Assembly: GCA_023254245.1 (NCBI GenBank)
Contig: JALQYE010000015.1
Location: forward strand, 1-38,470
Length of the DNA: 38,470 bases
From: Emticicia sp.
GTDB taxonomy: Bacteria; Bacteroidota; Bacteroidia; Cytophagales; Spirosomataceae
Reading direction: 5' to 3'
Part shown: positions 13,203 through 29,102 of the stretch, piece after piece
How the letters are laid out: each line of letters starts with the position of its first letter
Position numbering within the stretch: the first letter of the stretch is position 1
Notes under the pieces: model-generated
Seen by the model: the letters and a program-made list of their open reading frames with translations, nothing else
Told to the model about the DNA's origin: nothing
The model's database searches: none
Made by a program: the position numbers and the translations under genes

Positions 13203-14114
13203 TTAAATTTTGTAGGTTTTTCCTTCTTCGGCTAAAAAGGTATTTTCAAAAACCTCTTTTGCTTCTGAAAGATGAGAATCAAGGGTCTTATAGCGTGAAG
13301 AGTAATGCCCAATAATCAATTGTTTGGCATTAGTTTGTTTGGCAATCATGGCTGCTTGGCGAGCCGTTGAATGATTGGTTTGTTCGGCTCTTTTTAGTTC
13401 GGAGTCAGTAAAAGTTGCTTCGTGATAGATACTGTCAATATTTAGTAACTGATTGATTTTTAGTTCGTTATATGCGGTATCCGAACAATATGCAAACGAT
13501 TTAGAAGTTCCACCTGCTACAGTATAATCTTCATTTTTGTAAGTGATTCCGCTTAGTTCATCATAAATATCGAGTCCATCTTTTAGCATTTTTAGGTATG
13601 GAATCGGGAAATTTGCAGGGAGGTTTTCTACAACGATTTTTCGCTTACTTGCTTTAGAACGAAATAAAAAGCCGCAGCACGGTATTCGATGATGCAGTGG
13701 AATTGTTTCGACTGAAACTAAATTAGTATTGAGTAAAGGAAAGGCATTTTCAGTATTAGTTTCTACAAAATTAATTTTGTAATGCAAACGAGTATCGGAG
13801 TGTTTAAATTGAGCGGTTAGAATTTCGTCGAGACCACGAGGTGCAAAAATAGTTAGGTCTTCTTTTCGTTGGTTCATGCTCCAGCTCGAAAGTAAACCAA
13901 TTAAACCAAAATAATGGTCACCGTGAAGATGGCTAATAAAAATATGACGAATTCTTGAAGATTTGACTTTTTGCTCGAGTAAACGGTACTGCGTACCTTC
14001 GCCACAATCAATCAAAAAAGATTCGTTTTCGATTGATAATAAAAAAGCTGAGGGGTGTCGATTTACAACAGGAGTCGCTGAGCCAGTACCTAAAACTAAA
14101 AAATCAAAATTCAT
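13203..14114 (-). CDS. rnz: Ribonuclease Z
   Basis: RNase Z is a zinc-dependent endonuclease that removes the 3' trailer of tRNA precursors. The 303-residue protein has the beta-lactamase fold signature SHLHGDH at 61-67, an N-terminal GTGSATP loop, and later zinc ligands including a CSDTAY segment and the GHYSSRY motif near the C-terminus. Length matches the short RNase Z form. It follows the STAS gene on the same strand after an 89-bp gap that contains a hairpin, so the two may share a transcript. Confidence 0.95.
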   Translation of the reverse strand: MNFDFLVLGTGSATPVVNRHPSAFLLSIENESFLIDCGEGTQYRLLEQKVKSSRIRHIFISHLHGDHYFGLIGLLSSWSMNQRKEDLTIFAPRGLDEILTAQFKHSDTRLHYKINFVETNTENAFPLLNTNLVSVETIPLHHRIPCCGFLFRSKASKRKIVVENLPANFPIPYLKMLKDGLDIYDELSGITYKNEDYTVAGGTSKSFAYCSDTAYNELKINQLLNIDSIYHEATFTDSELKRAEQTNHSTARQAAMIAKQTNAKQLIIGHYSSRYKTLDSHLSEAKEVFENTFLAEEGKTYKI

Positions 14115-14203: not shown

Positions 14204-14626
14204 TTAGAATTTTCCTTCTGTAAAGCCATTATCTTCGCCTAAATCGAATTCGTCATCGTTTTCTTCACGGAAATCGTTCTCTAAATCGTTCATAAATACG
14301 GCATCAATTGCTTCATCAACAGTTGGTAATAAGACAATTTCTGGTATTTTTTCGCCATCAATGAGGTCGAGAATGTCGTCATCTTTCGTGCAAACAATAA
14401 ATAAACCTTGCTCAGTACGGCAAACACGGGTTGCTTTTCTGAGAAGAGAAAGGCCCGATTCGTCAATTTCTAAAACTTTAGTAAAATCGACAATCATATT
14501 AGTTAAACCTTCACGATATAAAACAACGATTTGTTTTTCGATTTCAGCTGTAATTGATTTGTCGAATTTATTATCGTTTAGTTGGATAAGGGCGTAGTGT
14601 TCGGTTTTCTCAACAGAATAACTCAT
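14204..14626 (-). CDS. STAS-domain protein (anti-sigma factor antagonist-like)
   Basis: This 140-residue protein has a STAS fold over residues 1 to about 110, similar to SpoIIAA/RsbV-type anti-anti-sigma factors and to STAS parts of other signalling proteins. The family motif is DESGLSLL (55-62); Ser57 aligns with the serine that partner kinases phosphorylate. The last 28 residues are strongly acidic (about half Asp/Glu) and are not part of the fold. No anti-sigma kinase, phosphatase or sigma factor gene is adjacent, so its partner is unknown. The neighbour rnz is probably only co-transcribed. Confidence 0.8.
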   Translation of the reverse strand: MSYSVEKTEHYALIQLNDNKFDKSITAEIEKQIVVLYREGLTNMIVDFTKVLEIDESGLSLLRKATRVCRTEQGLFIVCTKDDDILDLIDGEKIPEIVLLPTVDEAIDAVFMNDLENDFREENDDEFDLGEDNGFTEGKF

Positions 14627-14729: not shown

Positions 14730-15620
14730 TTAGGAAATAAATTTATCAAGAATGACATCAACTAATTTATTTACAGAACGAATTTTCGAAGCAATTGTTT
14801 TGCCAAATGTTGGCTTGTTTGGGTCTTCAAAACCGTATTTAGGTGTGATTTTTGAAAGTTTTTTATAAGAATGCTTATTTAATTTCTCCGTGTACTCGCT
14901 TGGAAAAGCTCTATCACGGTAATTAATTGAATAGAGTTTTGAGTTAGATTTAAGCTGATTGAGATTTCTTTCTGGTAAATTCCAATAACCAATATTTATA
15001 CCCGATTCTTTTAGAATATGTACTCCATCAAACATGGCAGGAACGTGTTCGAGCCATAGTTGGTCGGCATTGAGTCCTTTACACATATTTTTGAATCCTT
15101 TTTGGCGGGTGTTGTTTCCCCACCACGCCAAGAATTTAGTTGTTTCTACTGAGTTTTTCAGACCTATAAAACCAGCATGATAAATACCTGAGTTAAGAAT
15201 TTGCTTTTCGTCGGGGTGAACGTTAGCAAATAATAATTGAGGAGTGATAATGATGTTTGATTTATTTAGAAGGCTATCAATGAATGAAATTGATTGAAAA
15301 ATAACAGAAGTACAATCGATAAATAATAATTTTTCTGTTTTCTTGAGAAAATATTCTGCAAAAAATGGCTTGCAATCAGCTACCATTTCTTCGTGTGTAT
15401 AACGTTCGGACATACCTCCAAAACCATTAATATTGAGTGACTTAACTCCAATAATAGGGTAGGGAGATTGAATGAAATTCGGAATATTAGTTTCTTCGTC
15501 AACTAAACCAATTTGAAACTCAAAATCGGGGTTATGAATTTTTACAGAATCACCCAAAACAAGGGCATTTGCCAGTTGATTGATAGTACAAACTGTAAAT
15601 ATGATTGGTGATGATGCCAA
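14730..15620 (-). CDS. GT8-like glycosyltransferase paralog, probably inactive
   Basis: This 296-residue protein is a paralog of the transferase at 16924-17907; both begin (P)IIFTVCTINQ or LVFTLCSVNY and share GD-S, NPDFE, IGLVD, GIY..GF and YWNL.ER. The metal-binding DxD of the paralog (DPD, 104-106) is DCT here (102-104), and the later FFHYSGY, which supplies a His ligand in such enzymes, is replaced by INYRDRAF. The DQ pair (186-187) is kept. The only possible start is TTG at 15620, because a stop lies six codons upstream without an ATG. The frame is intact over its whole length, so a non-catalytic partner role is possible; otherwise it is a decaying copy. It is the last gene of the polysaccharide block, separated by an 89-bp gap with a strong hairpin. 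Confidence 0.72.
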   Translation of the reverse strand: MASSPIIFTVCTINQLANALVLGDSVKIHNPDFEFQIGLVDEETNIPNFIQSPYPIIGVKSLNINGFGGMSERYTHEEMVADCKPFFAEYFLKKTEKLLFIDCTSVIFQSISFIDSLLNKSNIIITPQLLFANVHPDEKQILNSGIYHAGFIGLKNSVETTKFLAWWGNNTRQKGFKNMCKGLNADQLWLEHVPAMFDGVHILKESGINIGYWNLPERNLNQLKSNSKLYSINYRDRAFPSEYTEKLNKHSYKKLSKITPKYGFEDPNKPTFGKTIASKIRSVNKLVDVILDKFIS

Positions 15621-15662: not shown

Positions 15663-15706
15663 ACGTCGGCAAGTAGTACCACTATAGGTTGTATCCTTGC
15701 CGACGT
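15663..15706. repeat. Hairpin within the polysaccharide operon
   Basis: ACGTCGGCAAG (15663-15673) and CTTGCCGACGT (15696-15706) form a perfect 11-bp stem around 22 nt. It falls between the GT4 gene and the degenerate GT8-like gene and could reduce expression of the latter. Confidence 0.55.
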
Positions 15707-15709
15707 GCT

Positions 15710-16927
15710 TTATAAAACGCTTTTTAGTGCGTTTTCAATATTATTCGTGCATTTTTCTAATGTCCATTCTTTACGTACATAATCTGCTGCAAAAATACCC
15801 ATTTCTTTTCTCATAGCTGAATTTTCGCTCAATAAGTCTAAGTACTTTGCTAAATTTTTAGGATTTCTATCACTCAAAAAACCATTTTTATTCGGAATAA
15901 TAGTTTCTTTTACTCCACCTTCTTGCAAAGCTATGACTGGTGTTCCGCATGCATTTGCTTCGAGTGGAGCAAAGCCAAAAGGTTCAAGTTGCGATGTGTA
16001 AATCATGCAAAGTGCATTTGAAAGCAAGGATACGAGTTCGTTATCCGAAACCATCGTTTTTATTTCAAAACTTACCCCTGTTTGTTTGGCTAAGGATTGC
16101 ATTTCTTCGGCATAAGTTTGACTAACCATGTTGGCTACCCAAATGAGTTTTATACCTTTATTTTTCATTTGAGCCATTGCTTCAACAGCCAAACGGGGGT
16201 TTTTATTGACATAAAAGTTGCCCAAACCAATCACATAATCAGATTTTTCTATTTGGGTTGGCTTGAAAATCTCAGAATCAATGCCCAAATAACACACTTC
16301 GGCGGGTGTCCCGTAGGCTTTTAGGCAACTTTCAGCCGAATAAATTGAATTAACCAAAACCTTATCAAATGCTTCGTAGTTTTTTCTTTCTTCTCGCATT
16401 TGCACTCTATTTCTACGCTCTACCCATAAATCTTCTAAGAAAGGCAGCCAATAGCTTCTACGAAAAACTTTACCAGATGCACCTTGTGGGGCTTCCCATA
16501 CAAGTCTCGGTAGTGATTCGTAAAAAAATCGGAATGGTTCACCCAAATACAAAACTTTTGGAATCTTTACATGCTGGCTAATAAAGGGAACTGCGTAGAA
16601 GAAACAACTATTGGCAAATAGGACATCGAAACCACCTGCATTTATCTCATCGGCACACTGCTTACAATGGGCTTCCATATCAAGCATATTTTGGTCTTTT
16701 TCAAAGAAAATAGACTTGAATTTGTCTTTTAGTGAGGTTTCCTTGGTTCTATTATAAGTTATTTTGTGAATTTTTACATCAGAAGGAATCTGCATAAATC
16801 CATCAGCATCGGGCGAATTACTCCAAATTTCGATTTGGTGTCCACGCTGATGCAGCCCATTCAAATGATAGTTTAAAGCTCTACTTCCTCCACCGCTTGG
16901 AAGATTATGCCAAATTGCGATTTTCAT
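15710..16927 (-). CDS. Glycosyltransferase family 4 protein
   Basis: This 405-residue GT-B enzyme has an N-terminal acceptor domain starting MKIAIWHNLPSGGGSRALNY and a C-terminal nucleotide-sugar domain with the GT4 E-x7-E motif EPFGFAPLE near residue 318, followed by ANACGTPVIA. Such enzymes transfer a sugar with retention of configuration onto a growing glycan at the cytoplasmic side of the membrane. The start overlaps the stop of the GT8-like gene upstream by 4 bp (ATGA), so the two are translationally coupled. The donor and acceptor sugars cannot be read from the sequence. Confidence 0.9.
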   Translation of the reverse strand: MKIAIWHNLPSGGGSRALNYHLNGLHQRGHQIEIWSNSPDADGFMQIPSDVKIHKITYNRTKETSLKDKFKSIFFEKDQNMLDMEAHCKQCADEINAGGFDVLFANSCFFYAVPFISQHVKIPKVLYLGEPFRFFYESLPRLVWEAPQGASGKVFRRSYWLPFLEDLWVERRNRVQMREERKNYEAFDKVLVNSIYSAESCLKAYGTPAEVCYLGIDSEIFKPTQIEKSDYVIGLGNFYVNKNPRLAVEAMAQMKNKGIKLIWVANMVSQTYAEEMQSLAKQTGVSFEIKTMVSDNELVSLLSNALCMIYTSQLEPFGFAPLEANACGTPVIALQEGGVKETIIPNKNGFLSDRNPKNLAKYLDLLSENSAMRKEMGIFAADYVRKEWTLEKCTNNIENALKSVL

Positions 16928-17907
16928 AGTTTTTCAATCAAAGATGCTAATTTTTCAAGTGGCATTTTAGCATATTTTCTTACACGTACCAAGCGTTGAA
17001 CTTTTTTGGGTTTGATGTAGTCACACTTGAAGTTTTTCCAATAAAGTTCGTTGTTAGTCAGAAGTTGGTTTCTGTATAGCTCAAAAAGTGGAATGATATC
17101 TGGACGATTTTCGAAACTGATGCGGTCTTGATATTTTGAAACTTCGTTTGGTTTGGCAATCAGATAACCACTGTAGTGGAAAAACTGCAAGGGTATGTTT
17201 CCATTTATTACCCAACTATTCTCTACAAACGAACAAACACGCTCATGTAGATTCCAATATGCTACGTTGTTTCCTAAGTGTTTATCAATGAATACTTTAT
17301 CGAAATAAACTGGAAAAAACTCGGCCCAGTGTTGGTCAACAAAAAGACCATTACAAAGGTCGATTTTACATTCTTTTTCGAGTTTGTCACACCACCAAGT
17401 AACCATTTTTTGAGCTTCTTCTGAGCGTTTGATAGCTACAAACCCAAAATTATAAATGCCCGTATTGATAATATCTTCTTCACTTTGCCATTTTGTATCA
17501 TTATATGGCGTTGTCATGTGTGGCGTAACAACAATATTGTTTTCGGCTAAATTTTTAGTGAGATGTTTGAGCTTGTCAAAAACAATAATGTCAGGGTCAA
17601 AATAGATGATATTGGTAATATCTGGTCTATTTTTTAAGAAATAATCAAAATAGTAAGGTTTAACGGCGGTATTTAATTCGGTTATATCATAGCGGTCACA
17701 CATTCCAACGAAATCAGGAATGTTGATTTTATCTACTTCAAGTAATTGATAGTCAGGTAGTTTTGATTTGTCAATATCTTTTGTATCGAGTTTGTCAACC
17801 AAACCGATTATGTATTCAAAATCAGGATTTTGTTCACGTAACGAGTCGCCAAGCGTGTGTGCTTGAGCTAAATAATTGACCGAGCAAAGTGTAAAAACAA
17901 GTGTCAT
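16924..17907 (-). CDS. GT8-like glycosyltransferase
   Basis: This 327-residue GT-A type enzyme has the metal-binding motif YFDPDIIVF (DPD at 104-106), a VDQHW segment (190-194) and FFHYSGY (242-248), whose His is the usual second metal site in retaining GT8-like enzymes. The N-terminus VFTLCSVNYLAQAHTLGDSL is typical of this polysaccharide-locus family. It probably adds one sugar to the repeat unit. Its stop overlaps the start of the downstream GT4 by 4 bp. It is the intact paralog of the gene at 14730-15620. Confidence 0.85.
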   Translation of the reverse strand: MTLVFTLCSVNYLAQAHTLGDSLREQNPDFEYIIGLVDKLDTKDIDKSKLPDYQLLEVDKINIPDFVGMCDRYDITELNTAVKPYYFDYFLKNRPDITNIIYFDPDIIVFDKLKHLTKNLAENNIVVTPHMTTPYNDTKWQSEEDIINTGIYNFGFVAIKRSEEAQKMVTWWCDKLEKECKIDLCNGLFVDQHWAEFFPVYFDKVFIDKHLGNNVAYWNLHERVCSFVENSWVINGNIPLQFFHYSGYLIAKPNEVSKYQDRISFENRPDIIPLFELYRNQLLTNNELYWKNFKCDYIKPKKVQRLVRVRKYAKMPLEKLASLIEKL

Positions 17908-17915
17908 ATGATAAA

Positions 17916-17979
17916 GGTCTGTACCGAAGGCCTGACCGAATTATTTTGGAGTTATTGGGTTAGACCTTCGGTGTAGACC
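17916..17979. repeat. 22-bp inverted repeat overlapping a gene end
   Basis: 17916-17937 (GGTCTGTACCGAAGGCC...) pairs with 17958-17979 at 18 of 22 positions; all four differences are transitions, some of which allow G-U pairs. The right arm covers the stop and last codons of the GT4 gene that ends at 17960, and the left arm lies 8 bases before the next start codon. Confidence 0.55.
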
Positions 17980-19126
17980 CCAGTAGACTTTCAATTTTCA
18001 ATACCGAATTCTCAAAACTATACTTATTCAGTACCTTATCTTTGGCTTTTTGCCCCAGTTGCTTGGCAAAAGATTGATTTAAAAACAACTTAGTAATACT
18101 CGAAGCCATGGCGAACGTATTCAAATAAGGTACAATTATTCCAGCATCTTCCTCAATGAATTCACTACAACCGCCAGTTTTATCAAAACCAATCATAGTT
18201 TTTTGTGCCAGTGCTGCTTCAAGCATTACGAGTGGGAATGGGTCTTCTCTCGAAACTATCGTAAAAATATCTAAACAGTTTATTAATTCAACCGCATCGG
18301 GTGTTTGTTCGATAAATGTAATTTTATCTCCGATTCCCATTTTTGCGATATCGTATGAAATTTGCTCATAGTAATCGCCTTCTTTTTTGATACCAATCCA
18401 AACGAAATGGCAATTTTCATTGCTTGTATTGAGAATTTGGTTGATTACTTGCAAAAAAACATCAATGCCTTTTCTCCATTCGGCGTTTCCGCATCCACCA
18501 ATCAAAAATCCACTTTCAGGAAGATTATATTTTTGCTTAATTAATTGATTATCAGTTGCTTCAATTCGATTAAGAATTGCTCCATTATCTACGAATGAAT
18601 GAATAACTTCAATTTTCCGAGCTGAGACTGAATGATTTTCTATGATATTTTCGGCCACCGCTTGTGAGCAAGCAATAATTTTTGTGGCATATCTAAATAA
18701 AAACTCACGGTCAGTAGCTTGTGAATAAAGCTGTATAGAAAACTCTAATTCGTGAATGTGAGCCAATAATGGTGCTTTCACATGTTCGGTCAGTTTTGGT
18801 AAAACATGAGCAGAAGCAATAGTATTGGCATAGAGATAATCGAAATTTGAGTTTTGGAGGTACTCCAGAAGTTGTAGAGTGGCATTTGGCTCATGCTGAC
18901 TCTTCACCAGTTTTGAAATGGCTTTTTTTATGCCTTTTTTCTGGGAATTTGTATTTGGCCAATAATGATTGGTACAGATTTCGGCAAAATCATTTTTAAG
19001 AACACCTCCTCCAAGCAATAAAAGTTGCATTTCTACACCTTTTTGCTTTAAATATCTCATGATACTCAATAAAAAAAGTTGAGCCCCAGCTCGATTAGCA
19101 TCATGACTTATGAATAGAATTTTCAT
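17960..19126 (-). CDS. Glycosyltransferase family 4 protein
   Basis: This 388-residue GT-B enzyme starts [20 protein letters not shown], where GAQ is the glycine-rich donor/acceptor loop, and has the E-x7-E motif [13 protein letters not shown] followed by GFDKTGG. It shares this [14 protein letters not shown] form with the GT4 at 19720-20820, so these two are closer relatives of each other than of the GT4 at 15710. The start overlaps the gmhA stop by 4 bp, indicating coupling. The sugar is unknown. Confidence 0.9.
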
Positions 19127-19716
19127 GAAATAGTTGGGTTTAAAACTTTTTTCTCAATGAGCATTATCAGAATATGAATGACCTTGATATGAATTTCTTG
19201 GATACGGTCAGCATAGCCAAAATGTGGTACTCTGATTTCGATATCGGCCATTCCTGCCAGCTTTCCGCCATCTTTTCCAGAAAAAATAACCACTTTCATG
19301 CCTTTTTCACGAGCTGCTTGGGTAGCATTGATGATATTCTTTGAGTTACCACTCGTACTAATTCCAAGCAAAACATCTCCTTCATTTCCCAAACCCTCAA
19401 TGAACCTTGAAAAAATATAATCAAAACCATAATCATTACCTACACACGAAATATGGCTTGGGTCTGAAATTGCAATAGCCGCCAATGATTTTCGGTTATC
19501 ACGATAGCGGCCCGAAAGTTCTTCGGCAAAGTGCATGGCATCACAATGCGAGCCACCATTGCCACACGAAATAATTTTATTGCCTTTTTTGATAGCATCG
19601 GCCATCAAATCAGCAACTTTTTCGATATTATTTATAGTTACATCCGAACTCATAAAATCAATGAGCACCTTTTGTGCTTCTTGAAGTTCGGCTAAAATTT
19701 CGTTGTAATTTATCAT
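19123..19716 (-). CDS. gmhA: D-sedoheptulose 7-phosphate isomerase
   Basis: GmhA turns sedoheptulose 7-phosphate into D-glycero-D-manno-heptose 7-phosphate, the first step to ADP- or GDP-linked heptose. The 197-residue SIS-fold protein contains the characteristic [38 protein letters not shown] and [19 protein letters not shown] blocks, extremely close to the enterobacterial enzyme and including its zinc ligands (His and Glu of the first block, Gln and His of the last). It is embedded in the glycosyltransferase operon, 3 bases from one GT4 gene and overlapping another. The later pathway genes (hldE, gmhB or the GDP branch) are not in the window. Confidence 0.95.
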
Positions 19717-19719
19717 TTT

Positions 19720-20820
19720 TTAATCAAAAATTGAGTCCCATTTGCTAATTTGGTTTTGAATATCAAATTCTAAGGCTCTATTTTTTAGTTTTTCTTTGTC
19801 AATAATCAATGTTTTATTTTGTACAGAAATCATTGCTTCTGTCAAATCTTTTGGGTTAAAGCTATCAATGCTTTTTCCCATTCCTTCTTGAATAAATTCT
19901 GAAATTCCACCTGAATTATAACCAACAATTGGTTTTCCGAGATAAGCAGCTTCCATCATTACTAAAGGAAACGGGTCTTCTTTAGCTGTCAGCACAAAGC
20001 CATCGGCAATATTTAAATAATCATAATATTCATCCGATTTTTCGCCAATTTCGATAAAGTTTAGTTTTTCAAGCTTAGTTCTTTGACGAATGTAATGCAA
20101 AACCCCCGTTTGTTTGACACTTCCGAGCCAAGCAATATAGGTGTTTGCGGGTAAAAACTCAAACAAATCGCATACAGTATCATAGCCTTTACGGAGATTC
20201 ATTGAACCTGACATTATCCAAACAAAAGCGTCAGTTGGAATATTTAAGTTTCGACGAATGCTTTCAGTAGAACTTTTTAGCTGTATTGTTTGGGTATCAA
20301 TAAACGAGTGGAGTAGAAGGGTATTTTGATATCCCATTTCTTTTACTCGTTTTTCTACGATTGACGAACAGCAAATTATTCTATCGGCATTATCGAACAT
20401 GAACTTAAATTCATCGTATCTAATTTCATCATAAATACTTACCAGCTCATGCACATGTAGGTCGTAAGGAACTTGAAGTTTAACTGCTAACTTGGCAAAT
20501 TGTGGCATTGTGAGGGTATTAAGGTACCAACGGTCTGCTTTTATTTGCTTTTGTAAATCAATTAGTTTTTTTTCTTCGGGAGTAATCTTGAAGATTTTAT
20601 AATAAATACCTTCATAGATTTTGTATAAAAATCCTCGTTTGGAAGTATTGACAAAAGTTTGGTCAGCAGTTGAGTAGTTGGCAAATAATTCCCCATTCTG
20701 ACGAGTGTAAATAGCTGTTTTTATCTTACCAGAAAGGCGTTTCAGTAAATACCAAAGTAGCATTTCCGAACCTGTGCGTCCGCCTGTGGGAGTGATAAAA
20801 AGAACTAATTTTTTACTCAT
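19720..20820 (-). CDS. Glycosyltransferase family 4 protein
   Basis: This 366-residue GT-B enzyme begins MSKKLVLFITPTGGRTGSEML, with the glycine-rich loop TGGRTGSE, and carries [21 protein letters not shown], whose two Glu form the GT4 catalytic E-x7-E. It is a relative of the GT4 at 17960. It ends 3 bases before the gmhA start. A 116-bp gap with an imperfect hairpin separates it from the GT2 upstream. Role in assembling the repeat unit is inferred from the locus. Confidence 0.9.
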   Translation of the reverse strand: MSKKLVLFITPTGGRTGSEMLLWYLLKRLSGKIKTAIYTRQNGELFANYSTADQTFVNTSKRGFLYKIYEGIYYKIFKITPEEKKLIDLQKQIKADRWYLNTLTMPQFAKLAVKLQVPYDLHVHELVSIYDEIRYDEFKFMFDNADRIICCSSIVEKRVKEMGYQNTLLLHSFIDTQTIQLKSSTESIRRNLNIPTDAFVWIMSGSMNLRKGYDTVCDLFEFLPANTYIAWLGSVKQTGVLHYIRQRTKLEKLNFIEIGEKSDEYYDYLNIADGFVLTAKEDPFPLVMMEAAYLGKPIVGYNSGGISEFIQEGMGKSIDSFNPKDLTEAMISVQNKTLIIDKEKLKNRALEFDIQNQISKWDSIFD

Positions 20821-20877
20821 AGATTGGTTATTTATTATTAGAAAATTAGTTTACTGGTTATTTGACAATTAGGCAAC

Positions 20878-20921
20878 TTGTTACTGTGGAATTATATTTG
20901 TTAACTAATTTCCAGTAACAA
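20878..20921. repeat. Imperfect hairpin in the GT2-GT4 gap
   Basis: TTGTTACTGTGGAA at about 20878-20891 pairs with TTCCAGTAACAA at 20910-20921, with one bulged base. The rest of the 116-bp gap is AT-rich and without an ORF. Confidence 0.45.
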
Positions 20922-20936
20922 ATACACTAATTACTA

Positions 20937-21914
20937 CTAACCAAGTTTATAAAATGTTGGTTTTTTAAGTAAAATATTCCAAAAATATTTTGTGAAAATG
21001 CCAATCATATTGGAAAACTTCTTTTGATTTTCAAGTTCTGAAAATGGATTTCTGAAATTTATGGCATTGGATACTATTTTCATCAAAAAAAAGGTTGGCA
21101 CCCAAAGCCAATAATGAAGCATCAATAAAAAATAGTGTAAGGCTCCAAATTGTTTACGAATCCAAACTAAATTAGAAAGCTGAATTTGATGGTCAAAACG
21201 ATTAAAATAGGTGTAGTTTTGGGCCTCATCGTATCGTTCGGGCTTACTTCCCCATTCTTCATGAATGATATTACAATCTTTAAATACCAATAATTTCCCA
21301 AGTTTACTGAGTCGATAGCCCCATTCAGTATCTTCACCATACAGAAAAAACTCTTCGTCGAGTCCGCCAGTTTTTTCAAAGCCTTCTCGCCTTACCATTA
21401 AAAATGCAGCAGCGATATAATCAACTTGTTCGGGGTCTTGATATTTTGTCTGACGAATGAGTGAATTTAGAATATTACGAAACTTTGGTGGAACTATCCA
21501 AAAATCACGTCGAAATGTAAAAGTATGGTAAAACGTACGAGGACTTAAATCGGGATAGACTTGATATGCACCACCCGCAATAGCATCTGGCCGAGCATCG
21601 AGATTGGCAGCACAAGTATCAATTACTGGTTCGTATAATTTTGTGTCGGAGTTGAGTAAAAGCAAGTATTTTCCGTTCGCAATTCGCATTCCTGCGTTAT
21701 TTGCACGAGCAAAACCTGCATTATAATTCATTGATAACCAAATAGTTTCGGGAAAGAAGGATTTAATATATCCTTCGTCGTCTCCTTTTGAAGCATTATC
21801 GACAACTATTACTTCGTAGCTAACTTTGGTAGTAAATTGTTTGATAGTTTTGATACAATCAACAATTAATTCGGGCGTACGGTAATTGACAATTATGATA
21901 GAAACAGTTACCAA
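20937..21914 (-). CDS. Glycosyltransferase family 2 protein
   Basis: This 325-residue inverting GT-A transferase has VSIIIVNYRTPELIVDCI at the N-terminus, VVDNASKGDD, then NYNAGFARANNAG and LLLNSDTKL (NSDT at 88-91 as the DxD equivalent), and GEDTEWGYRL further on. This pattern is that of rhamnosyltransferase-like GT2 enzymes in O-antigen and capsule loci. A hydrophobic C-terminal segment (about 255-275) may hold it at the membrane. The start is TTG at 21914; a stop lies eight codons upstream and no ATG is available. Confidence 0.9.
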   Translation of the reverse strand: MVTVSIIIVNYRTPELIVDCIKTIKQFTTKVSYEVIVVDNASKGDDEGYIKSFFPETIWLSMNYNAGFARANNAGMRIANGKYLLLLNSDTKLYEPVIDTCAANLDARPDAIAGGAYQVYPDLSPRTFYHTFTFRRDFWIVPPKFRNILNSLIRQTKYQDPEQVDYIAAAFLMVRREGFEKTGGLDEEFFLYGEDTEWGYRLSKLGKLLVFKDCNIIHEEWGSKPERYDEAQNYTYFNRFDHQIQLSNLVWIRKQFGALHYFLLMLHYWLWVPTFFLMKIVSNAINFRNPFSELENQKKFSNMIGIFTKYFWNILLKKPTFYKLG

Positions 21915-21939
21915 ATGAAACTTAGATTTAAGTGTTTAC

Positions 21940-23019
21940 TCAAAGATTTTCGTTGATGATACTCGCAATACGTTCTACATCTTCCAATGCTAAATCGTAA
22001 TAAAGAGGCAAAGATAGTGCTCTTTGTGCAATGTTCTCAGAAATTGGGCAAGGATTATAGAAATCTAAGTAAGGTAACTGGTTGAGTGATGGATAAAAAT
22101 ATCTTCTTGGAGTAATTTCGTGCTGCTTAAGTGCTTCAGTAACTTGTAAAAGTTTAGCTTCAGACTCCAATATGACTGGGTAGTAAGCATAATTATACTC
22201 AAAGCCTTCAATCTCATTGCTTGGGCGTTGGAGTTTTTCCCAATTCAATAATTCGTCATATTTTTCTGAAACAACTCTACGATTACTGACAATATCGGCA
22301 ACTTTCGGCAAATTACACAAACCCATTGCAGCATGAAACTCAGAGTTTTTTGCATTGATTCCCATTGTATAATAGTCATCGTTCTTATGTCCAAAACTGC
22401 GGTATAGTTCCAGTTTTTTATTCAGTTCTGTATCATTACTCACAACGCATCCGCCTTCGATACTGTGAAAAACTTTCGTAGCATGAAAACTACATGTAGT
22501 AATATCGCCAAATGAAAGTACAGATTTACCTTTGTAAGTTGCTCCAAAACCGTGAGCTCCGTCGTAAATAACTTTTAGATTATATTTTTGAGCAATGGTT
22601 TCAATTTTTTCAACGTCACATGGGCGGCCATAAACGTGCGTAGCCATAATTGCCGTGGTTTTTTCGGTAATGGCTGCTTCAATAAAATCTGCATTGATAT
22701 TGAAAGTCTTTGGCTCGATATCGACAAAAACTGGTTGCAGATTTTCCCACAAAATAGAAGTAGTGGTGGCACAGTAGGAGAAAGGCGTAGTAATGATTTC
22801 GCCTGTTAGGTTCAATGCTTTAAGAGCAATCTGAATCGCTATTGTTCCGTTTCCAACAAAAAGAAGATGTTCAACGTTTAAATATTCCTTTAACTGCCCT
22901 TCGAGTTTTCTAACCAATGGCCCATTATTGGTAAGCCACGTGTTTTCCCAAATACCTTTGATAATTTCTTGGTATTCTTCAATCGGAGGTAAAAAAGATT
23001 TTGTTACGTTTATAGCCAC
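21940..23019 (-). CDS. DegT/DnrJ/EryC1-family sugar aminotransferase
   Basis: This 359-residue PLP enzyme transfers an amino group to a keto-sugar nucleotide, giving an amino-deoxy sugar. The PLP lysine is K182 in SFHATKVFHSIEGG, and D153 in YDGAHGFGA contacts the pyridine nitrogen. The family's TPFSY and ATHVYGRPCD segments are present. Start is GTG at 23019. It is the only nucleotide-sugar enzyme besides gmhA in the locus, so the polymer probably contains an amino sugar; the matching dehydratase genes must lie elsewhere. Which carbon is aminated cannot be read from the sequence. Confidence 0.88.
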   Translation of the reverse strand: MAINVTKSFLPPIEEYQEIIKGIWENTWLTNNGPLVRKLEGQLKEYLNVEHLLFVGNGTIAIQIALKALNLTGEIITTPFSYCATTTSILWENLQPVFVDIEPKTFNINADFIEAAITEKTTAIMATHVYGRPCDVEKIETIAQKYNLKVIYDGAHGFGATYKGKSVLSFGDITTCSFHATKVFHSIEGGCVVSNDTELNKKLELYRSFGHKNDDYYTMGINAKNSEFHAAMGLCNLPKVADIVSNRRVVSEKYDELLNWEKLQRPSNEIEGFEYNYAYYPVILESEAKLLQVTEALKQHEITPRRYFYPSLNQLPYLDFYNPCPISENIAQRALSLPLYYDLALEDVERIASIINENL

Positions 23020-23085
23020 TGTAAAATGCCAATGAAGGCTGTATAATTTGATGATTATTACTATTTTGGGGTCTTACTGTGTGAA

Positions 23086-24330
23086 TCAAATAAGTCCATC
23101 TATCTTCCAAGTTTGTACTGGAATATTAATAGGTCTGACTGCTCCTGGCCATTTTCCGTACCAATTTGTACCTTCCCGCCAATCGGCCACATCAAAGCTG
23201 ATGGCATCTTCCATAAAGAAAATTGGGTCGGCTGTATCTTTTACAATCATAACCGAAATGTAATAAGAACCATCATTCAAGAAATTACCTGGAATTTCAA
23301 GCATTCCTTTGATAAGACCTTTCGAGAACGTTTTGGCTTGGCTTCCTACATTAAATACACATTCGCCAGTCATGTTATACAAGAACATACTCAAATTCAA
23401 ATGTGCTGATTCAAGCATATTCCAAAACTCAATATTTACTTTCAATGGCGTACGAACATCAATATTTTTGCTTCCATTGATAAATTCGGGTACTACCTCA
23501 ATATTTTTAATTCTTACTTGGTCAGTTCCTGGTGCTTCTTCGGGTGTTTCCCAATTCTGTTGTAATTGGAATTTAGAAATACTGGTCATGTAATCATGTA
23601 GTACTTCTCCAACTTCACCGTATTTTATTAGATGTCCTTTTTGTAAAAAGGCAGCCTTATTACAAAGCCCTTGGATGGCAGTTGCGTTATGGCTTACAAA
23701 TAAAATTGTTCGTCCACTACTCGAAACATCTTTCATTTTGCCGAGACATTTCTTCTGAAATTCAGAGTCACCAACGGCCAAAACTTCATCAACGATGAGT
23801 ATTTCGGGTTCGAGGTGTGCTGCGATGGCAAAGCCCAAACGAACGTACATACCTGATGAGTAACGCTTTACGGGAGTATCTAAGAATTTTTCGATACCAG
23901 CAAAACTTACGATTTCATCAAATTGGCTTCTGATTTCGTGTTGTTTCATGCCCAAAATTGCACCATTCAAGAAAATATTTTCGCGGCCAGTAAGTTCTGG
24001 ATGAAACCCTGTTCCAACTTCCAATAAACTTGCCATTCGGCCATTTACTTTTACTTGTCCGCTGGTTGGCTCAGTAATTCGACTTAAAATTTTGAGCAAA
24101 GTAGATTTCCCTGCACCATTAGAACCAACGATTCCGATACGGTCGCCCTGCTCAATATCAAAACTTACATTTTTTAAAGCCCAAAATACTTCTTTGGTTT
24201 CTTCTTCATCTTTCGAAGTAAATAACTCACTGAAAAAGCCCGACATACTTTCTTTCAGATTTTGGTATTTCTTCTTTTTATGACTCAGAATATACTTTTT
24301 TGATATATTTTCAATCGAAATTGCTTTCAT
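23086..24330 (-). CDS. Polysaccharide ABC exporter ATPase with C-terminal cargo domain (Wzt type)
   Basis: This 414-residue ATPase powers export of a complete polysaccharide across the inner membrane. Walker A is GSNGAGKST (69-77), the signature is YSSGMYVRLGFA, and Walker B is LIVDEVLAVGD. Residues about 250-410 form an extra beta-rich domain of the Wzt C-terminal type, which in known O-antigen systems binds the non-reducing end of the cargo glycan. An unusual charged insert, KKKKYQNLKESMSGFFSEL, precedes the nucleotide-binding core, as in teichoic-acid and O-antigen exporters. The permease gene is the next one upstream (125-bp gap with a small hairpin at 24348-24364). Confidence 0.93.
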   Translation of the reverse strand: MKAISIENISKKYILSHKKKKYQNLKESMSGFFSELFTSKDEEETKEVFWALKNVSFDIEQGDRIGIVGSNGAGKSTLLKILSRITEPTSGQVKVNGRMASLLEVGTGFHPELTGRENIFLNGAILGMKQHEIRSQFDEIVSFAGIEKFLDTPVKRYSSGMYVRLGFAIAAHLEPEILIVDEVLAVGDSEFQKKCLGKMKDVSSSGRTILFVSHNATAIQGLCNKAAFLQKGHLIKYGEVGEVLHDYMTSISKFQLQQNWETPEEAPGTDQVRIKNIEVVPEFINGSKNIDVRTPLKVNIEFWNMLESAHLNLSMFLYNMTGECVFNVGSQAKTFSKGLIKGMLEIPGNFLNDGSYYISVMIVKDTADPIFFMEDAISFDVADWREGTNWYGKWPGAVRPINIPVQTWKIDGLI

Positions 24331-24347
24331 TTATTATTTACAAAAAA

Positions 24348-24364
24348 GTCATTTTACAAATGAC
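24348..24364. repeat. Small hairpin in the permease-ATPase gap
   Basis: GTCATTT-TAC-AAATGAC with A-rich sequence to the left lies 17 bases before the ATPase start codon. It is weak and could modulate translation or be incidental. Confidence 0.35.
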
Positions 24365-24455
24365 CTTTGTGATAATTGTTACAAATTTATTATGTACTTG
24401 TGGTTGAAAAACTAATAGAAATCATGTTTTGAAAAATAATTTTCAATTCAGATTT

Positions 24456-25286
24456 TTATAGGTGGTCAACGAATGAATTTTCATTTTTGCGGAAAAACCA
24501 AATCGAAAACAATACTGAAATGGCGACAAAAATGAGCATCGGAATAAAACTTTGCCAATTAAAGTCCGCAAAGTCTCCCAGTAAACACCAGCGTAACCCA
24601 TCAATTGTACCCGCTACAGGATTTAGATTGTAAATCGGATACCACCATTCATTTCTTACTCGTTCACTTGAATAAGCAACTGGTGAGATAAAATAACCAA
24701 ACTGAACCACAAATGGGATAATTTGGGCAATATCACGATATTTTACGTTTAACACCGAAGCGAAAAGTCCTGCACCAAAAGCACCTAAATAGGCCAAAAA
24801 CAAAAATATTGGAGCAAATATAATGTGCCAACTTGGAATAAATTGGTAATATATACAAAACACAAAGAACATAGCAAAAGCAATCATTGCATCAAGTAAA
24901 CCAACCAAAAGCGAGCTAAAAGGTATAATTATTCTTGGGAAATAAACTTTTGAAACTAAGTTTCCATTTCCTACGATACTATTACTAATTTGTGAAAGTG
25001 ATTGTGAGAAAAATAGCCAAATAATAACTCCAGGAATGACAACAAGCATATATGGAATGCTTGAATCTTGCTCTAATTTAGCAATTTTGCCGAAGGCAAA
25101 AACCATAACCATTGCAGTCATTAATGGTCGGATTACTCCCCATGCTACTCCCAAAACAGTTTGTTTGTAGCGAACCATTACATCACGTTTGCCGAGAATC
25201 CAGAATAATTCTCGCTGACGCCATACTTCTCTCCAATAATGTAAGGCAGATTTTCCTGCTTTTATTACTACTTCGTCTCTTTCCAT
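24456..25286 (-). CDS. ABC-2 type polysaccharide permease (Wzm type)
   Basis: This 276-residue inner-membrane protein has about six hydrophobic segments after a cytoplasmic N-terminus with WRQRELFWILGKRDVMVRYKQT, the amphipathic region typical of O-antigen and teichoic-acid ABC permeases. Later it has the RDIAQIIPF and SPVAYSSE motifs of the family. It forms the export channel with the ATPase encoded just downstream. It follows the co-polymerase gene after 25 bases, so the export proteins form one unit. Confidence 0.92.
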   Translation of the reverse strand: MERDEVVIKAGKSALHYWREVWRQRELFWILGKRDVMVRYKQTVLGVAWGVIRPLMTAMVMVFAFGKIAKLEQDSSIPYMLVVIPGVIIWLFFSQSLSQISNSIVGNGNLVSKVYFPRIIIPFSSLLVGLLDAMIAFAMFFVFCIYYQFIPSWHIIFAPIFLFLAYLGAFGAGLFASVLNVKYRDIAQIIPFVVQFGYFISPVAYSSERVRNEWWYPIYNLNPVAGTIDGLRWCLLGDFADFNWQSFIPMLIFVAISVLFSIWFFRKNENSFVDHL

Positions 25287-25311
25287 TTATTCAAAAAATC
25301 ATCTTGACTTA

Positions 25312-26403
25312 TCAGTTCACTAACTCTTTATAGGATTTTCTCATGATTATAAAAATTAAGCATAAGAAAAAGCCAACTAATGCTCCTTTTTGTGTATTTC
25401 CACCAACAGTGTAAGTACGTTGAATTAGTGGCAATCGAACTGGTTGTAAGACGGTGAAAAGAGGAGTTTGATTAATCAACTGCATTTTTATCTGTTCTAC
25501 CGCTGCTAATTGTTGATAATATTGGGTAGATACATAGTTATTACTACGATTCAACTGCATGGTTCGCATAGGTGCAGTCGGGTCAACTGCATTTTGATTC
25601 TGAAATTGAGCGTTAGCCAATTGACGGTCAGTTGAACTTAACTTTCCTTCTAATTCCCGCAATCTTGACATCTGAATGTCATAAATTTTTCGGGTCTTTT
25701 GCGTTCTTACTTCCCCATAAAATTCTTCAAGGGTTTCTAAAAGTGTTTCTAACCAAACTTTGGTTAAAAACTCACTATTAGTAGTTGCCGACAAAACCAT
25801 AATCGAACCCATCTTATCAAGTGGTTGAAGTGCTGTTTGTGCTTCAAGTTTTTCGTAGATGGTAGAAAGCATGATATTCTCATCCTTCGTAAAATCGTTT
25901 GGTGATTTTGGTTTAAATTGATATTTAATTGCCTTATAGTTCGGTTCATGAAGGAAATCTCCTCCCCATTCTTTTTTTGCAATATCACTGCTATCTTTAT
26001 AGAAATTGATAAAAAGAGTTTTCTTTCCACCAATCAAAACTTCTTTCATCAAGGCTTTTTCATAGAGTGTTTTAGATGAAATCAATAAGCCAAAGTTTCC
26101 ACCACTAAACAAATCATTTGAGGTTGTTCCACCACCAATGCCAAAAGCTCCTGCAAGTCCACCAAAGCCACCTAAACCCATTTGTTGGCCTCCGCCTGCT
26201 TCTAAATTAAACTGAATTTCTCCTGTGTAATCTGTATCTTTTAGTTCTTTTACATCAAGCAAGATACTAATCAGTGTACCAAGAGCAATACTAATTAAAA
26301 GTAACCTCCATTCATTTCCAATGAGTTTGAAAATGCCAATTATTTTCTTTATTAAATCTTTGGTATTTATTTGCTCTTCTTGTATTGTTTGATATTCTGC
26401 CAT
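25312..26403 (-). CDS. Wzz-type polysaccharide co-polymerase / chain-length protein
   Basis: This 363-residue protein has an N-terminal transmembrane helix (about 31-48, EWRLLLISIALGTLISILL), a long periplasmic part with coiled-coil character (about 225-285), and a C-terminal helix (ALVGFFLCLIFIIM) preceded by a proline- and glycine-containing stretch (LPLIQRTYTVGG), the classic Wzz layout. There is no cytoplasmic tyrosine kinase domain. A Gly-rich segment (about residues 69-93) is exposed after the first strand. It lies 38 bases after the SLBB gene; the two probably form the trans-envelope path. Confidence 0.9.
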   Translation of the reverse strand: MAEYQTIQEEQINTKDLIKKIIGIFKLIGNEWRLLLISIALGTLISILLDVKELKDTDYTGEIQFNLEAGGGQQMGLGGFGGLAGAFGIGGGTTSNDLFSGGNFGLLISSKTLYEKALMKEVLIGGKKTLFINFYKDSSDIAKKEWGGDFLHEPNYKAIKYQFKPKSPNDFTKDENIMLSTIYEKLEAQTALQPLDKMGSIMVLSATTNSEFLTKVWLETLLETLEEFYGEVRTQKTRKIYDIQMSRLRELEGKLSSTDRQLANAQFQNQNAVDPTAPMRTMQLNRSNNYVSTQYYQQLAAVEQIKMQLINQTPLFTVLQPVRLPLIQRTYTVGGNTQKGALVGFFLCLIFIIMRKSYKELVN

Positions 26404-26441: not shown

Positions 26442-28922
26442 TTATTTAGATAATTGAAAAATAGCCAATACACTTAAAAACGTGGTAATTGTTCCAGCAA
26501 TGGTAGCAAATAGACCTTGTACTTGAGCAATTTGTTGTTGAGCTGTAACAGTTTTTTGTGGAATAATAATTTCTGAACCTGGTGCTACTTTTGGATAGAG
26601 ATTTACAAACAAGACTCTACGAGTTCTATCCACAGAGCCATTGGCATACAAGATATAAGATTTGCTTCTCAATGATTTCTTTGTAAATCCACCCGCATTT
26701 GAGATATAATTGATGAAGTTTTTATCATCTAAATATTTTACAGTAGTTGGATAAAGAACTTCTCCTTGTACACGTACAGTTTCAAGTCGTTTAGGGATTC
26801 TAATGATATCGCCATCTTGCAAAATCATATCTTCATTAGAACCAGGGTTTTGCATGATTTTAGTTAAGTTAATTCCGATTGAAGATACAGTTGTGGCATT
26901 AACATCTTCAACTTGTACAGCCTGATTTCCTCTAACACTATTGGTGATTTCTGTAATTGCTTTGCGGCGTTGGGCAAGTTCAATTTCGCTTAATTGAATC
27001 TGACGAACTAACGTAGCTCCTTCTAAATATGCTTGTGGGCTTAAACCACCCGCTCTCTCAATTAAATCAGAAATTTTTTCAGTTTTACTTTTAATACCGT
27101 AGGTAGCAGGGAAAATTACCTCACCCTGAATTTCGGCAAAGGTTTGTTCGATATAATTTGGAGAACGACGAATAAAGATTTCATCAAATGGAAATAAAAC
27201 AAATTTATTTCCTGTTTGGTCAACTTTTAAGTCGGCATTGATATTGAAAGTATATGTATCCGAAATTTGAGCATTAGCTGCAGTTGGGTCAACATTACGT
27301 TTACGACGTACAACCTCAACTCTTGATAATGATGCAGATTCTGATAAACCTCCAGCTTTTACCAATACATCTTCAATAGTCATATTTCTCAAGAATGGCA
27401 TCTCTATTCCATCAATAGCAGCAGGATTATTTAATGCTCCTTGAATACGCACGTAAGCAGGCTCTGTCAAGTCAAAAATAGAAGGAATTGTAATAATATC
27501 TTCACGTTTTAGTACTACATCAGCTGACTTGCCTTTTACGATATCATCATAATTAACCGAGATATTCTCAACAATCATATCTTCACGAGTGCGTATAATT
27601 GAAATTCTTCCAACTAAAGCTTCTCCTTTCAGACCTTCTGCTGATTTAATTAATTGTGAAAGTGTTGGGCTGGTTTCTAAAGAATATTCACCTGGACGGA
27701 AAATAGCACCGTTTACGGCCACCATATTTTCAAAACGCTCTAAAACTCGTTCAATCACAACTGAATCACCAGATTGCATTTTAAAAGTCGGGAAATCTGC
27801 TTCTAATACGTCTAAAAGTTTTCTCTCACGTGCCGTGTTTCTATAAACTTTCAATCGATGATGATAGGCATAAGGTGCAAATCCACCTGCGTACTCAATC
27901 AATTTATTAAGTTTTTCGTCTTCTAAAAGCTCAAATAAACCTTCTCTTTTTGTATTTCCTTTTACTGCAACTCGTGAAGTATAAGGCAACACTTGAATAA
28001 TATCTTGGTCTTGAAGAATTATATTGTTTTTAGTAAATCCATTCATTAAAAGTTCATAAATGTCGAATGTAGCAACAACACGATTACTTCTAATAATATT
28101 AATTTTACGGTACGTTCCAACTTCATTTGGGCCTCCACACGCATACAAGGCATTTTGCACTGTCGATAACGATGATAATGTGTACGTACCTGGAGCAATT
28201 ACTTCCCCTGTTACTGTTACTTTTATGCTACGAATATTTCCTAATGAAACATTTAAAAATGTGTTAGCTGGAAATCCAGAGTATGGATTCAATCCAATAT
28301 ATATTTTTGATAAACGACTTTTAAGTCTTTCTTTTGCTTGTTCGATTGTTGAGCCAGCTAAATAAATCAGACCTACTTTATCTAAGGTAATGTATCCATC
28401 AGCCGAGATAATTGGCTTATACATTACTTGAGAATAACCATAAATATCAATTAGAAGTTGGTCGTTAGGGCCAAGAACATAATTACTTGGTGTAGCAATA
28501 TTTATAGCAGGTGTTGGGTCAAACTTTACGGTGTTAAATAAATTGTAGCCAAATATTCTTCTTCTGAGGGTAGCTTTAGCAGCATCTTGCTCGGTTTCTT
28601 GTTCACGAATAATTCTTAGGGAATCTTCTTTATTGATGGCTCGTTGGTCAGCAGGATTTGCTTGCACGTTTCTTGCGGCATTGGCATCAGTTGCATTCAA
28701 AGCTCGATTTTTGGCTGGTAGCGGCATATTGGGAGTTGCTTGATTCGCATTGCCAGTATTTGCAGGTATACCAGTCGGAATATTGGTTGGGAGGTTAGTA
28801 GGAATGGCAGTTGGGCCAGTAGGTGTAGCAACAGGATTTTGTCCAAATGTTTTGCTAAAAATCAGTATAAAAAGCGTAAATTTGAAAAAAAATTGTGAAA
28901 AACGAATCTTGCTTAATTTCAT
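26442..28922 (-). CDS. SLBB-domain outer-membrane polysaccharide export protein
   Basis: This 826-residue protein resembles the Wza/OPX family but is much longer. I chose the ATG at 28922, which begins a signal peptide (MKLSKIRFSQFFFK...SKTFGQ); an in-frame ATG at 29024 would add 34 polar residues before it. After a Pro/Asn/Ala-rich linker with repeated I/L-PT-N/G units there is a polysaccharide-export domain (YVLGPNDQLLIDIYGYS), then about six SLBB repeats, recognisable by openings such as VTGEVIAPGTY, VNGAIFRPGEY, IQGEVIFPATY and VQGEVLYPTTV and by closings AGG. A single hydrophobic segment ends the protein (FLSVLAIFQ). It is first in the operon and should form the outer-membrane outlet. 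Confidence 0.92.
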   Translation of the reverse strand: MKLSKIRFSQFFFKFTLFILIFSKTFGQNPVATPTGPTAIPTNLPTNIPTGIPANTGNANQATPNMPLPAKNRALNATDANAARNVQANPADQRAINKEDSLRIIREQETEQDAAKATLRRRIFGYNLFNTVKFDPTPAINIATPSNYVLGPNDQLLIDIYGYSQVMYKPIISADGYITLDKVGLIYLAGSTIEQAKERLKSRLSKIYIGLNPYSGFPANTFLNVSLGNIRSIKVTVTGEVIAPGTYTLSSLSTVQNALYACGGPNEVGTYRKINIIRSNRVVATFDIYELLMNGFTKNNIILQDQDIIQVLPYTSRVAVKGNTKREGLFELLEDEKLNKLIEYAGGFAPYAYHHRLKVYRNTARERKLLDVLEADFPTFKMQSGDSVVIERVLERFENMVAVNGAIFRPGEYSLETSPTLSQLIKSAEGLKGEALVGRISIIRTREDMIVENISVNYDDIVKGKSADVVLKREDIITIPSIFDLTEPAYVRIQGALNNPAAIDGIEMPFLRNMTIEDVLVKAGGLSESASLSRVEVVRRKRNVDPTAANAQISDTYTFNINADLKVDQTGNKFVLFPFDEIFIRRSPNYIEQTFAEIQGEVIFPATYGIKSKTEKISDLIERAGGLSPQAYLEGATLVRQIQLSEIELAQRRKAITEITNSVRGNQAVQVEDVNATTVSSIGINLTKIMQNPGSNEDMILQDGDIIRIPKRLETVRVQGEVLYPTTVKYLDDKNFINYISNAGGFTKKSLRSKSYILYANGSVDRTRRVLFVNLYPKVAPGSEIIIPQKTVTAQQQIAQVQGLFATIAGTITTFLSVLAIFQLSK

Positions 28923-29102
28923 ATCAATAACGTTATTTGTCGGATGACTTTCTCTTTTATTATTTTTACAAACGAAAAAGTTATGCAAAGTAACACAAGA
29001 TTTTTTATTTTGTTGCTGTTTCATGTTAAGTATGTATTAAAAAGAACTTTGGAATACAAAGTAAATGATAAAACCTCAAACTACAAAATATTCTAATAAA
29101 AA

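Follow-up and report, generated by a model that had tools for sequence, protein, structure and literature searches.

Results

Organization of the locus

The window comprises 38,470 nucleotides of a genome (531 contigs, 82% complete) whose nearest named relatives belong to Emticicia (83% for B of E. aquatilis). It holds a polysaccharide cluster with the order Wza-like export protein, ORF 25312-26403, Wzm/Wzt ABC exporter, DegT aminotransferase, GT2, GT4, GmhA, GT4, A, GT4 and B, where A denotes the GT8 paralog with intact metal sites and B the paralog without them (Table 1). A and B form the end of the cluster, and STAS and metallo-beta-lactamase-fold genes lie beyond B.

Table 1. Genes and sequence motifs of the A-B locus, in window coordinates.
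Feature	Position	Strand	Remark
B, GT8-fold paralog without DxD and C-His	14730..15620	-	296 aa, TTG start
B N233-Y234-R235, opposite H244-Y-S of A	14916..14924	-	N233 invariant in the 10 full-length congeneric B rows
B D186-Q187, conserved DQ	15060..15065	-	D 41/42, Q 40/42 in main B clade
B N143-S-G145, conserved NxG	15186..15194	-	N 41/42, G 42/42 in main B clade
B D102-C103-T104, opposite DPD of A	15309..15317	-	invariant in the same 10 congeneric rows
GT4 gene separating A and B	15710..16927	-	4-nt overlap with A
A, GT8 glycosyltransferase paralog, metal sites intact	16924..17907	-	327 aa
A H244-Y-S-G-Y (C-His)	17164..17178	-	motif alignment
A D104-P-D106 (DxD)	17590..17598	-	aligned with glycogenin DAD by profile A6 (seeded from A)
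Remaining glycan cluster: GT4, GmhA, GT4, GT2, DegT, Wzt, Wzm, ORF 25312-26403	17960..26403	-	domain matches, synteny
Wza-like polysaccharide export protein (Poly_export, SLBB)	26442..29024	-	

The order GT4b-A-(gene)-B is retained in the congeners; 12 named Dyadobacter loci share it and have Wzm/Wzt/DegT upstream as well. The intervening gene varies, being GT4 in the window and GT9, GT2 or DUF5672 in six other loci scanned. The contents of this slot differ between species (window 15710-16927; L032:6616-7635; L047:7323-9168; L055:6181-8281; L120:10987-11739), as if side-branch genes were exchanged inside a fixed pair. Beyond B, the congeneric loci that reach that far have the STAS-domain gene (14204-14626) and an RNase Z-like gene (13203-14114), both on the minus strand in the window, which is likely just stable gene order. 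ORF 25312-26403 (minus strand, 363 aa) gave no Pfam or NCBIfam match at E 0.001; in Dyadobacter it lies between the gene for the Wza-like protein and Wzm, in Emticicia loci it adjoins Wzm and, judged by position, it perhaps encodes a chain-length or co-polymerase protein. The presence in the cluster of GmhA (sedoheptulose 7-phosphate isomerase; 19123-19716, minus strand), together with the GT9 heptosyltransferase-type genes that fill the A-B slot in some relatives, suggests heptose in the glycan. Two intergenic gaps of the cluster contain inverted repeats, one of 11 nt and perfect (15663-15706), the other of 26 nt at 81% (17916-17979). Since a consensus scan of the minus strand found no terminator between the GT4 gene and B, and the 11-nt repeat was not seen in four congeners that share this gene order (G005, G007, G009 and G010), separate transcription of B is not claimed.

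Sequence and predicted fold of A and B

A preliminary description of this DNA, made from the sequence alone, had proposed that two paralogs flank a GT4 gene and that the left-hand one has lost two metal sites. Alignment confirmed both points: the proteins share 36% identity over 221 aa (BLASTP, E 1e-48), A has FDPD (D104-D106) and FFHYSGY (H244), and the positions of B aligned to the DPD and His of A are taken by DCT (102-104) and INYRDR (N233). The frame of B was correctly described as complete, with GDS, GLVD, DQ and YWNLPER kept (NxG is retained as well) and no stop inside it. TTG was likewise found to be its sole start (among ATG, GTG and TTG) upstream of the conserved core; the first start is also TTG in G005, G007, G009 and G010, and ATG in the other six congeners.

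The sequence of A matched Pfam GT8 (PF01501) with E 7e-7 and 29.5 bits against a cut-off of 24.3. B of the window had no Pfam or NCBIfam match up to E 1, so annotation with these libraries would miss its origin, and PF01501 matched 3 of 18 proteins of the B group at E 0.1 (best E 0.0057). The GT8 origin of B therefore rests on the alignment to A and the predicted fold. AlphaFold2 models had pLDDT 78.9 and pTM 0.80 for B and 77.8 and 0.81 for A, the stretch before NxG being modelled poorly in both (pLDDT < 50). The model of B matched LgtC (Z 15.6, rmsd 3.8-3.9 over 225 residues) and glycogenin (Z 15-16), and that of A matched glycogenin-2 (Z 15.3); prediction of both structures, which the preliminary description had proposed as a check, thus returned a GT8-type fold for each. 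Since UGGT (Z 16.4) tied with the GT8 structures, the fold alone cannot single out GT8 for B. Neither profile A2, made from A of the genus plus one near relative, nor profile A1, made from the B group, had a match in the PDB at E 0.01 and E 1. The broader profile A6 matched glycogenin with E 0.0013 over profile positions 3-118 only, a range that aligns the DxD and leaves the C-His beyond reach. Overall, A shows every GT8 feature checked (PF01501, DxD, C-His and predicted fold), whereas B has the predicted GT-A fold and lacks the PF01501 match, the DxD and the C-terminal HxxG His.

Distribution of the metal-site loss

In all 11 Emticicia genomes searched (the window's and 10 others) B is a neighbour of A and carries DCT and N at the two sites. 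In G010, B is split over two contig ends, and its halves show DCT and N. Repetition of these replacements in all 10 congeners makes chance or sequencing error an unlikely cause.

The search covered 98 genomes, the window's own included. In the genome set Emticicia shares one family (f1), which we take to be Spirosomataceae in GTDB naming, with 35 other genera; NCBI taxonomy has the genus in Leadbetterellaceae. A tree of 121 GT8-like proteins, built with the motif columns removed, separated an A clade of 65 proteins from a B clade of 47. Pieces shorter than 210 aa were left out of it, namely the two halves of B from G010, a piece from G020 and a contig-end piece from G035; the last, inspected apart from the tree, has N at the His site. 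D-x-D and His are kept in 65/65 A-clade proteins. In the B clade, D-x-D is absent from 44/47 rows: both sites are gone in 41 (the His site being a gap in two of these, L043 and L059) and three are mixed, with an x-P-E motif and, in two of the three, the His. The other three are intact, with DTD/DAD and HFSG. The x-P-E proteins (L063:7569-8510, L077:7458-8420 and L087:4752-6068; His at the C-His position in L063 and L077) may have a metal site that is rebuilt in part or constructed in another way. At E 1e-10, a search across 295 genomes of the class found homologs outside the family in 20 genomes, all 20 with D-x-D and His; one protein of G092 is counted in both of these control sets, the A clade and the outside homologs. 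Among the genomes searched, at the cut-offs used, metal-less B was seen only in this family.

Crown-type A occurs in 50 genomes. In 46 of them the locus also carries a B-clade gene, at a distance of about 1-4 kb; 41 of these genes are metal-less, 3 mixed and 2 intact. As to the remaining four, B of G010 is cut by the end of the contig next to A, the 3.9-kb contig with A in G019 carries no B, G020 has a B-like piece without metal sites (DPW) close to the end of a contig other than that of A, and the intact B-clade gene of G045 is likewise on a different contig. Ten genomes of the family have A of other subclades only and no B-clade match at E 1e-5.

Conserved and replaced residues in B

The second DxD position was T in 22, S in 8 and N in 6 of the 42 rows of the main B clade, E in 3 and never D. 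The first was D in 26, A in 8 and S in 5 (A or S in 13/42), and the His position was N in 26, D in 12 and H in 2 of 40 scorable rows. The motifs that replace DPD across the clade include DCT, DPS, DPN, DPT, APT, APS, SPT, SPS and DVT. By column entropy the three metal positions rank in the 17th-42nd percentile, counted from the most conserved end, and K84, N143, G145, D186 and Q187 in the 1st-9th; position 84 is K or R in 42/42 rows. The DQ, NxG and K positions presumably line the donor pocket, as in GT8 enzymes. Of 296 positions, 81 are invariant among the ten full-length congeneric proteins, and D102, C103, T104 and N233 are all among them, which indicates that the altered metal site is itself constrained. 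This constraint speaks for a pocket, putative and metal-free, that is in use.

A basic residue (K or R) stands two residues past the lost His in 22/40 scorable rows, including all 10 full-length congeneric rows, and is missing in 18/40. As a possible metal substitute, K139 (37/42 rows) was dropped since the three motif-intact B-clade proteins have it too. The N-x-N of BoGT6a type was not found among the 44 non-intact B-clade rows; D-P-N is present in six.

Selection on B and A

Values of dN/dS were estimated by maximum likelihood (GY94) for 11 of the 45 pairs among 10 congeners, with G010 left out. For B they were 0.02-0.13 in 10 pairs, the 11th failing to converge. The two pairs with dS near 1 gave 0.091 (window-G004, dS 1.04) and 0.132 (G005-G009, dS 0.84); the rest are saturated (dS > 2.5), eight of them giving 0.02-0.05 and one being the pair with runaway dS. 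A value of 1 was rejected in 11/11 pairs (twice the difference in lnL, 96.8-240.5). For A, dN/dS was lower (0.00-0.04, with dS running away in three pairs), and dN was higher for B than for A in all 11 pairs, the ratio of the two being 1.02-1.2 in three pairs and 1.7-3.8 in the other eight. B is faster-changing than A, yet clearly maintained by purifying selection.

Ancestry of B

A more careful tree was built from 64 rows, including 12 of the 65 A rows, 7 other intact rows and 4 of the 20 outside homologs, and omitting L059_4384 and L045_4936 (long branches) and L043_3 (partial). All 41 metal-less or mixed rows included formed one clade (support 81/57), adjoining the three B-clade proteins with intact motifs (G015, G037 and G045) in a joint clade with support 99/97. 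The nearest intact relatives of B are thus B-clade proteins of three other genera and not A. Two of them, in G015 and G037, occupy the slot of B beside A, so a motif-intact enzyme was probably the earlier occupant of this slot. The single clade of the 64-row tree implies one loss of the metal sites; in the quick 121-row tree the proteins L064 and L082 (genus g2) grouped with intact proteins, which implies two. As the trees disagree, the sites are considered to have been lost once or twice in the B lineage.

These results bear on further points of the preliminary description. It had called A the active paralog: the paralogy stands, but the intact form of B is to be sought among the DTD/DAD proteins with His rather than in A. 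Orthologs with a restored motif, named there as evidence against its reading, exist as the three intact B-clade proteins, outside the main metal-less clade and set against the 41 that lack both sites; dN/dS near 1, named alongside them, was not seen. Very recent decay, one of the two explanations offered, is ruled out by the family-wide state of B, its intact frames and its low dN/dS.

Association of A and B

In G040 and G058 the reading frames of A and B share 19 nt, and in G016 a gap of 3 nt separates them, suggesting coupled expression. Evolutionary distances of A and B correlated with r 0.925 over the 38 loci left after filters, and with a partial r of 0.72 given the linked GT4b gene (0/1000 permutations as high), a weak line of evidence in which GT4b orthology is by best hit and A may simply follow the species tree better than GT4b. 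The overlap, the 46/50 linkage and the correlation show that A and B travel together, which is no proof of contact. A gene fusing A and B was not seen among the matches listed for 98 and 180 genomes, and one gene separates the two in the genus of the window.

Discussion

B is an old, selected protein of GT8 fold that lacks the metal sites of its paralog. We consider the best explanation to be that B is a non-transferring partner of A that would hold glycan in a metal-free, putative pocket within a Wzm/Wzt polysaccharide cluster, at a probability of roughly 0.47. In such a role B would have lost the metal-dependent chemistry of transfer and retained the fold and the non-metal part of the sugar pocket, in which the growing glycan or a sugar end may be held. 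It would position or dock A during synthesis of the surface polysaccharide at the inner face of the membrane, ahead of export by Wzm/Wzt. Against a partner of A were counted the intervening gene in the window's genus, the lack of any fusion seen, the 10 genomes with only A of other subclades, the three B-clade members with both metal sites and the two mixed ones with His and x-P-E. Conservation of D-Q and N-x-G and the invariance of D-C-T and N in the genus would also fit a ligand-using or catalytic site better than a bare scaffold.

That last observation is the core of a serious rival, which the preliminary description had not considered: B may be a GT8 transferase that is active without metal and contributes a sugar of its own to the same pathway, groups of the polypeptide standing in for the metal. 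We rate it as quite possible, though somewhat less probable than the partner, and it stays close since the non-metal residues of the pocket rank with the best-conserved columns of B. Within the genus the replacement residues do not vary, the basic residue past the lost His is present in every full-length congener, and motif-intact proteins fill the slot of B in G015 and G037. Precedents are described for BoGT6a, where NXN stands for DXD, two cationic residues near the C-terminus contact the diphosphate and the enzyme is metal-independent (PMC3961637), and for GT14 and prokaryotic GT6, where DxD is described as lost independently (PMC7185993). BoGT6a resembles B in being a bacterial (Bacteroides) GT-A protein with a replaced DXD, and its structure 4ayj is among the Foldseek matches of A; it differs in belonging to GT6, in its proven activity and in its NXN, which B lacks. 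On the other side, no single replacement motif prevails in the B clade, A or S stands in for the first Asp in nearly a third of the rows, and the basic residue is often missing. The scatter of replacement motifs across the subclades of B and the absence of the basic residue in 18/40 rows are the reasons why the partner reading is slightly preferred.

Two further readings are improbable. Cosmc is an ER chaperone of animals and is not known to be a GT8 protein. B might be a chaperone or stabilizer specific for A with its pocket unused, resembling Cosmc, which is described as the helper of one glycosyltransferase, T-synthase (PMC5493369); this would suit the regular pairing with A and the loss of the metal sites, but residues of an unused pocket should drift, and those of B are among the most conserved. 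A shade less probable still is a B that binds metal through other residues, in the manner of GT24, described as having Asp in place of the C-His (PMC7185993). Asp occupies the His position in 12/40 main-clade rows, and L063 and L077 combine x-P-E with His; however, D never occurs at the second DxD position in 42 rows, where E is found in three, and B of the window carries T at this position and N in place of the His. A decaying pseudogene, to which the higher dN of B in all 11 pairs could point, is very improbable given that no stop lies inside any B match listed, dN/dS is far below 1, the replacements are kept in 11 congeneric genomes and the state is family-wide.

For a non-transferring partner of A, the closest known system is GAUT1:GAUT7, the homogalacturonan synthase of plants, whose two GT8 paralogs share 36% identity, as A and B do; one is described as catalytic and the other, GAUT7, as an anchor suggested to bind the growing chain (PMC7933479). 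The cited passages state that GAUT7 activity "has not been demonstrated" (PMC7933479, PMC7533613). One review, in the part cited, describes GAUT7 as a transferase (PMC11820401), which weakens the precedent. GAUT7 is also described as retaining DxD and HxxGxxKPW (PMC7533613), the motifs lost in B; moreover, the GAUT pair is from plants, whereas A-B is bacterial and known from its genes. As expected of a partner of GAUT7 type, B is a paralog of a linked, motif-intact enzyme and is under purifying selection. IRX9 of plant xylan synthesis, a putative glycosyltransferase of GT43, offers a second likeness in that transferase activity is described as not required for its function (PMC4132061); it differs from B in family, kingdom and polymer. 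The GT8 enzymes LgtC and glycogenin share the predicted fold of B and differ at the metal sites, glycogenin having the DxD and LgtC a C-His described as coordinating the metal (PMC7185993), where B has N. More speculatively, and in our judgment rather doubtful, A and B may form a bacterial two-subunit GT8 glycan synthase, the counterpart of GAUT1:GAUT7, in which the pocket of B would grip the growing chain while A adds sugar, having arisen through one or two losses and been kept across the family.

Losses of metal sites in GT-A proteins are already known from single families. Here, however, a GT8 protein devoid of metal sites has been retained next to an intact GT8 paralog in many genera, and sister lineages have relatives whose motifs are intact; the open PMC subset of the literature yielded no description of the A-B gene pair. 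The A/B series offers a tractable natural case in which to ask how a glycosyltransferase may turn into a binding or scaffolding subunit, or how it may come to work without metal. Either answer would aid the reading of bacterial polysaccharide clusters, in which each glycosyltransferase gene is often taken to stand for one added sugar.
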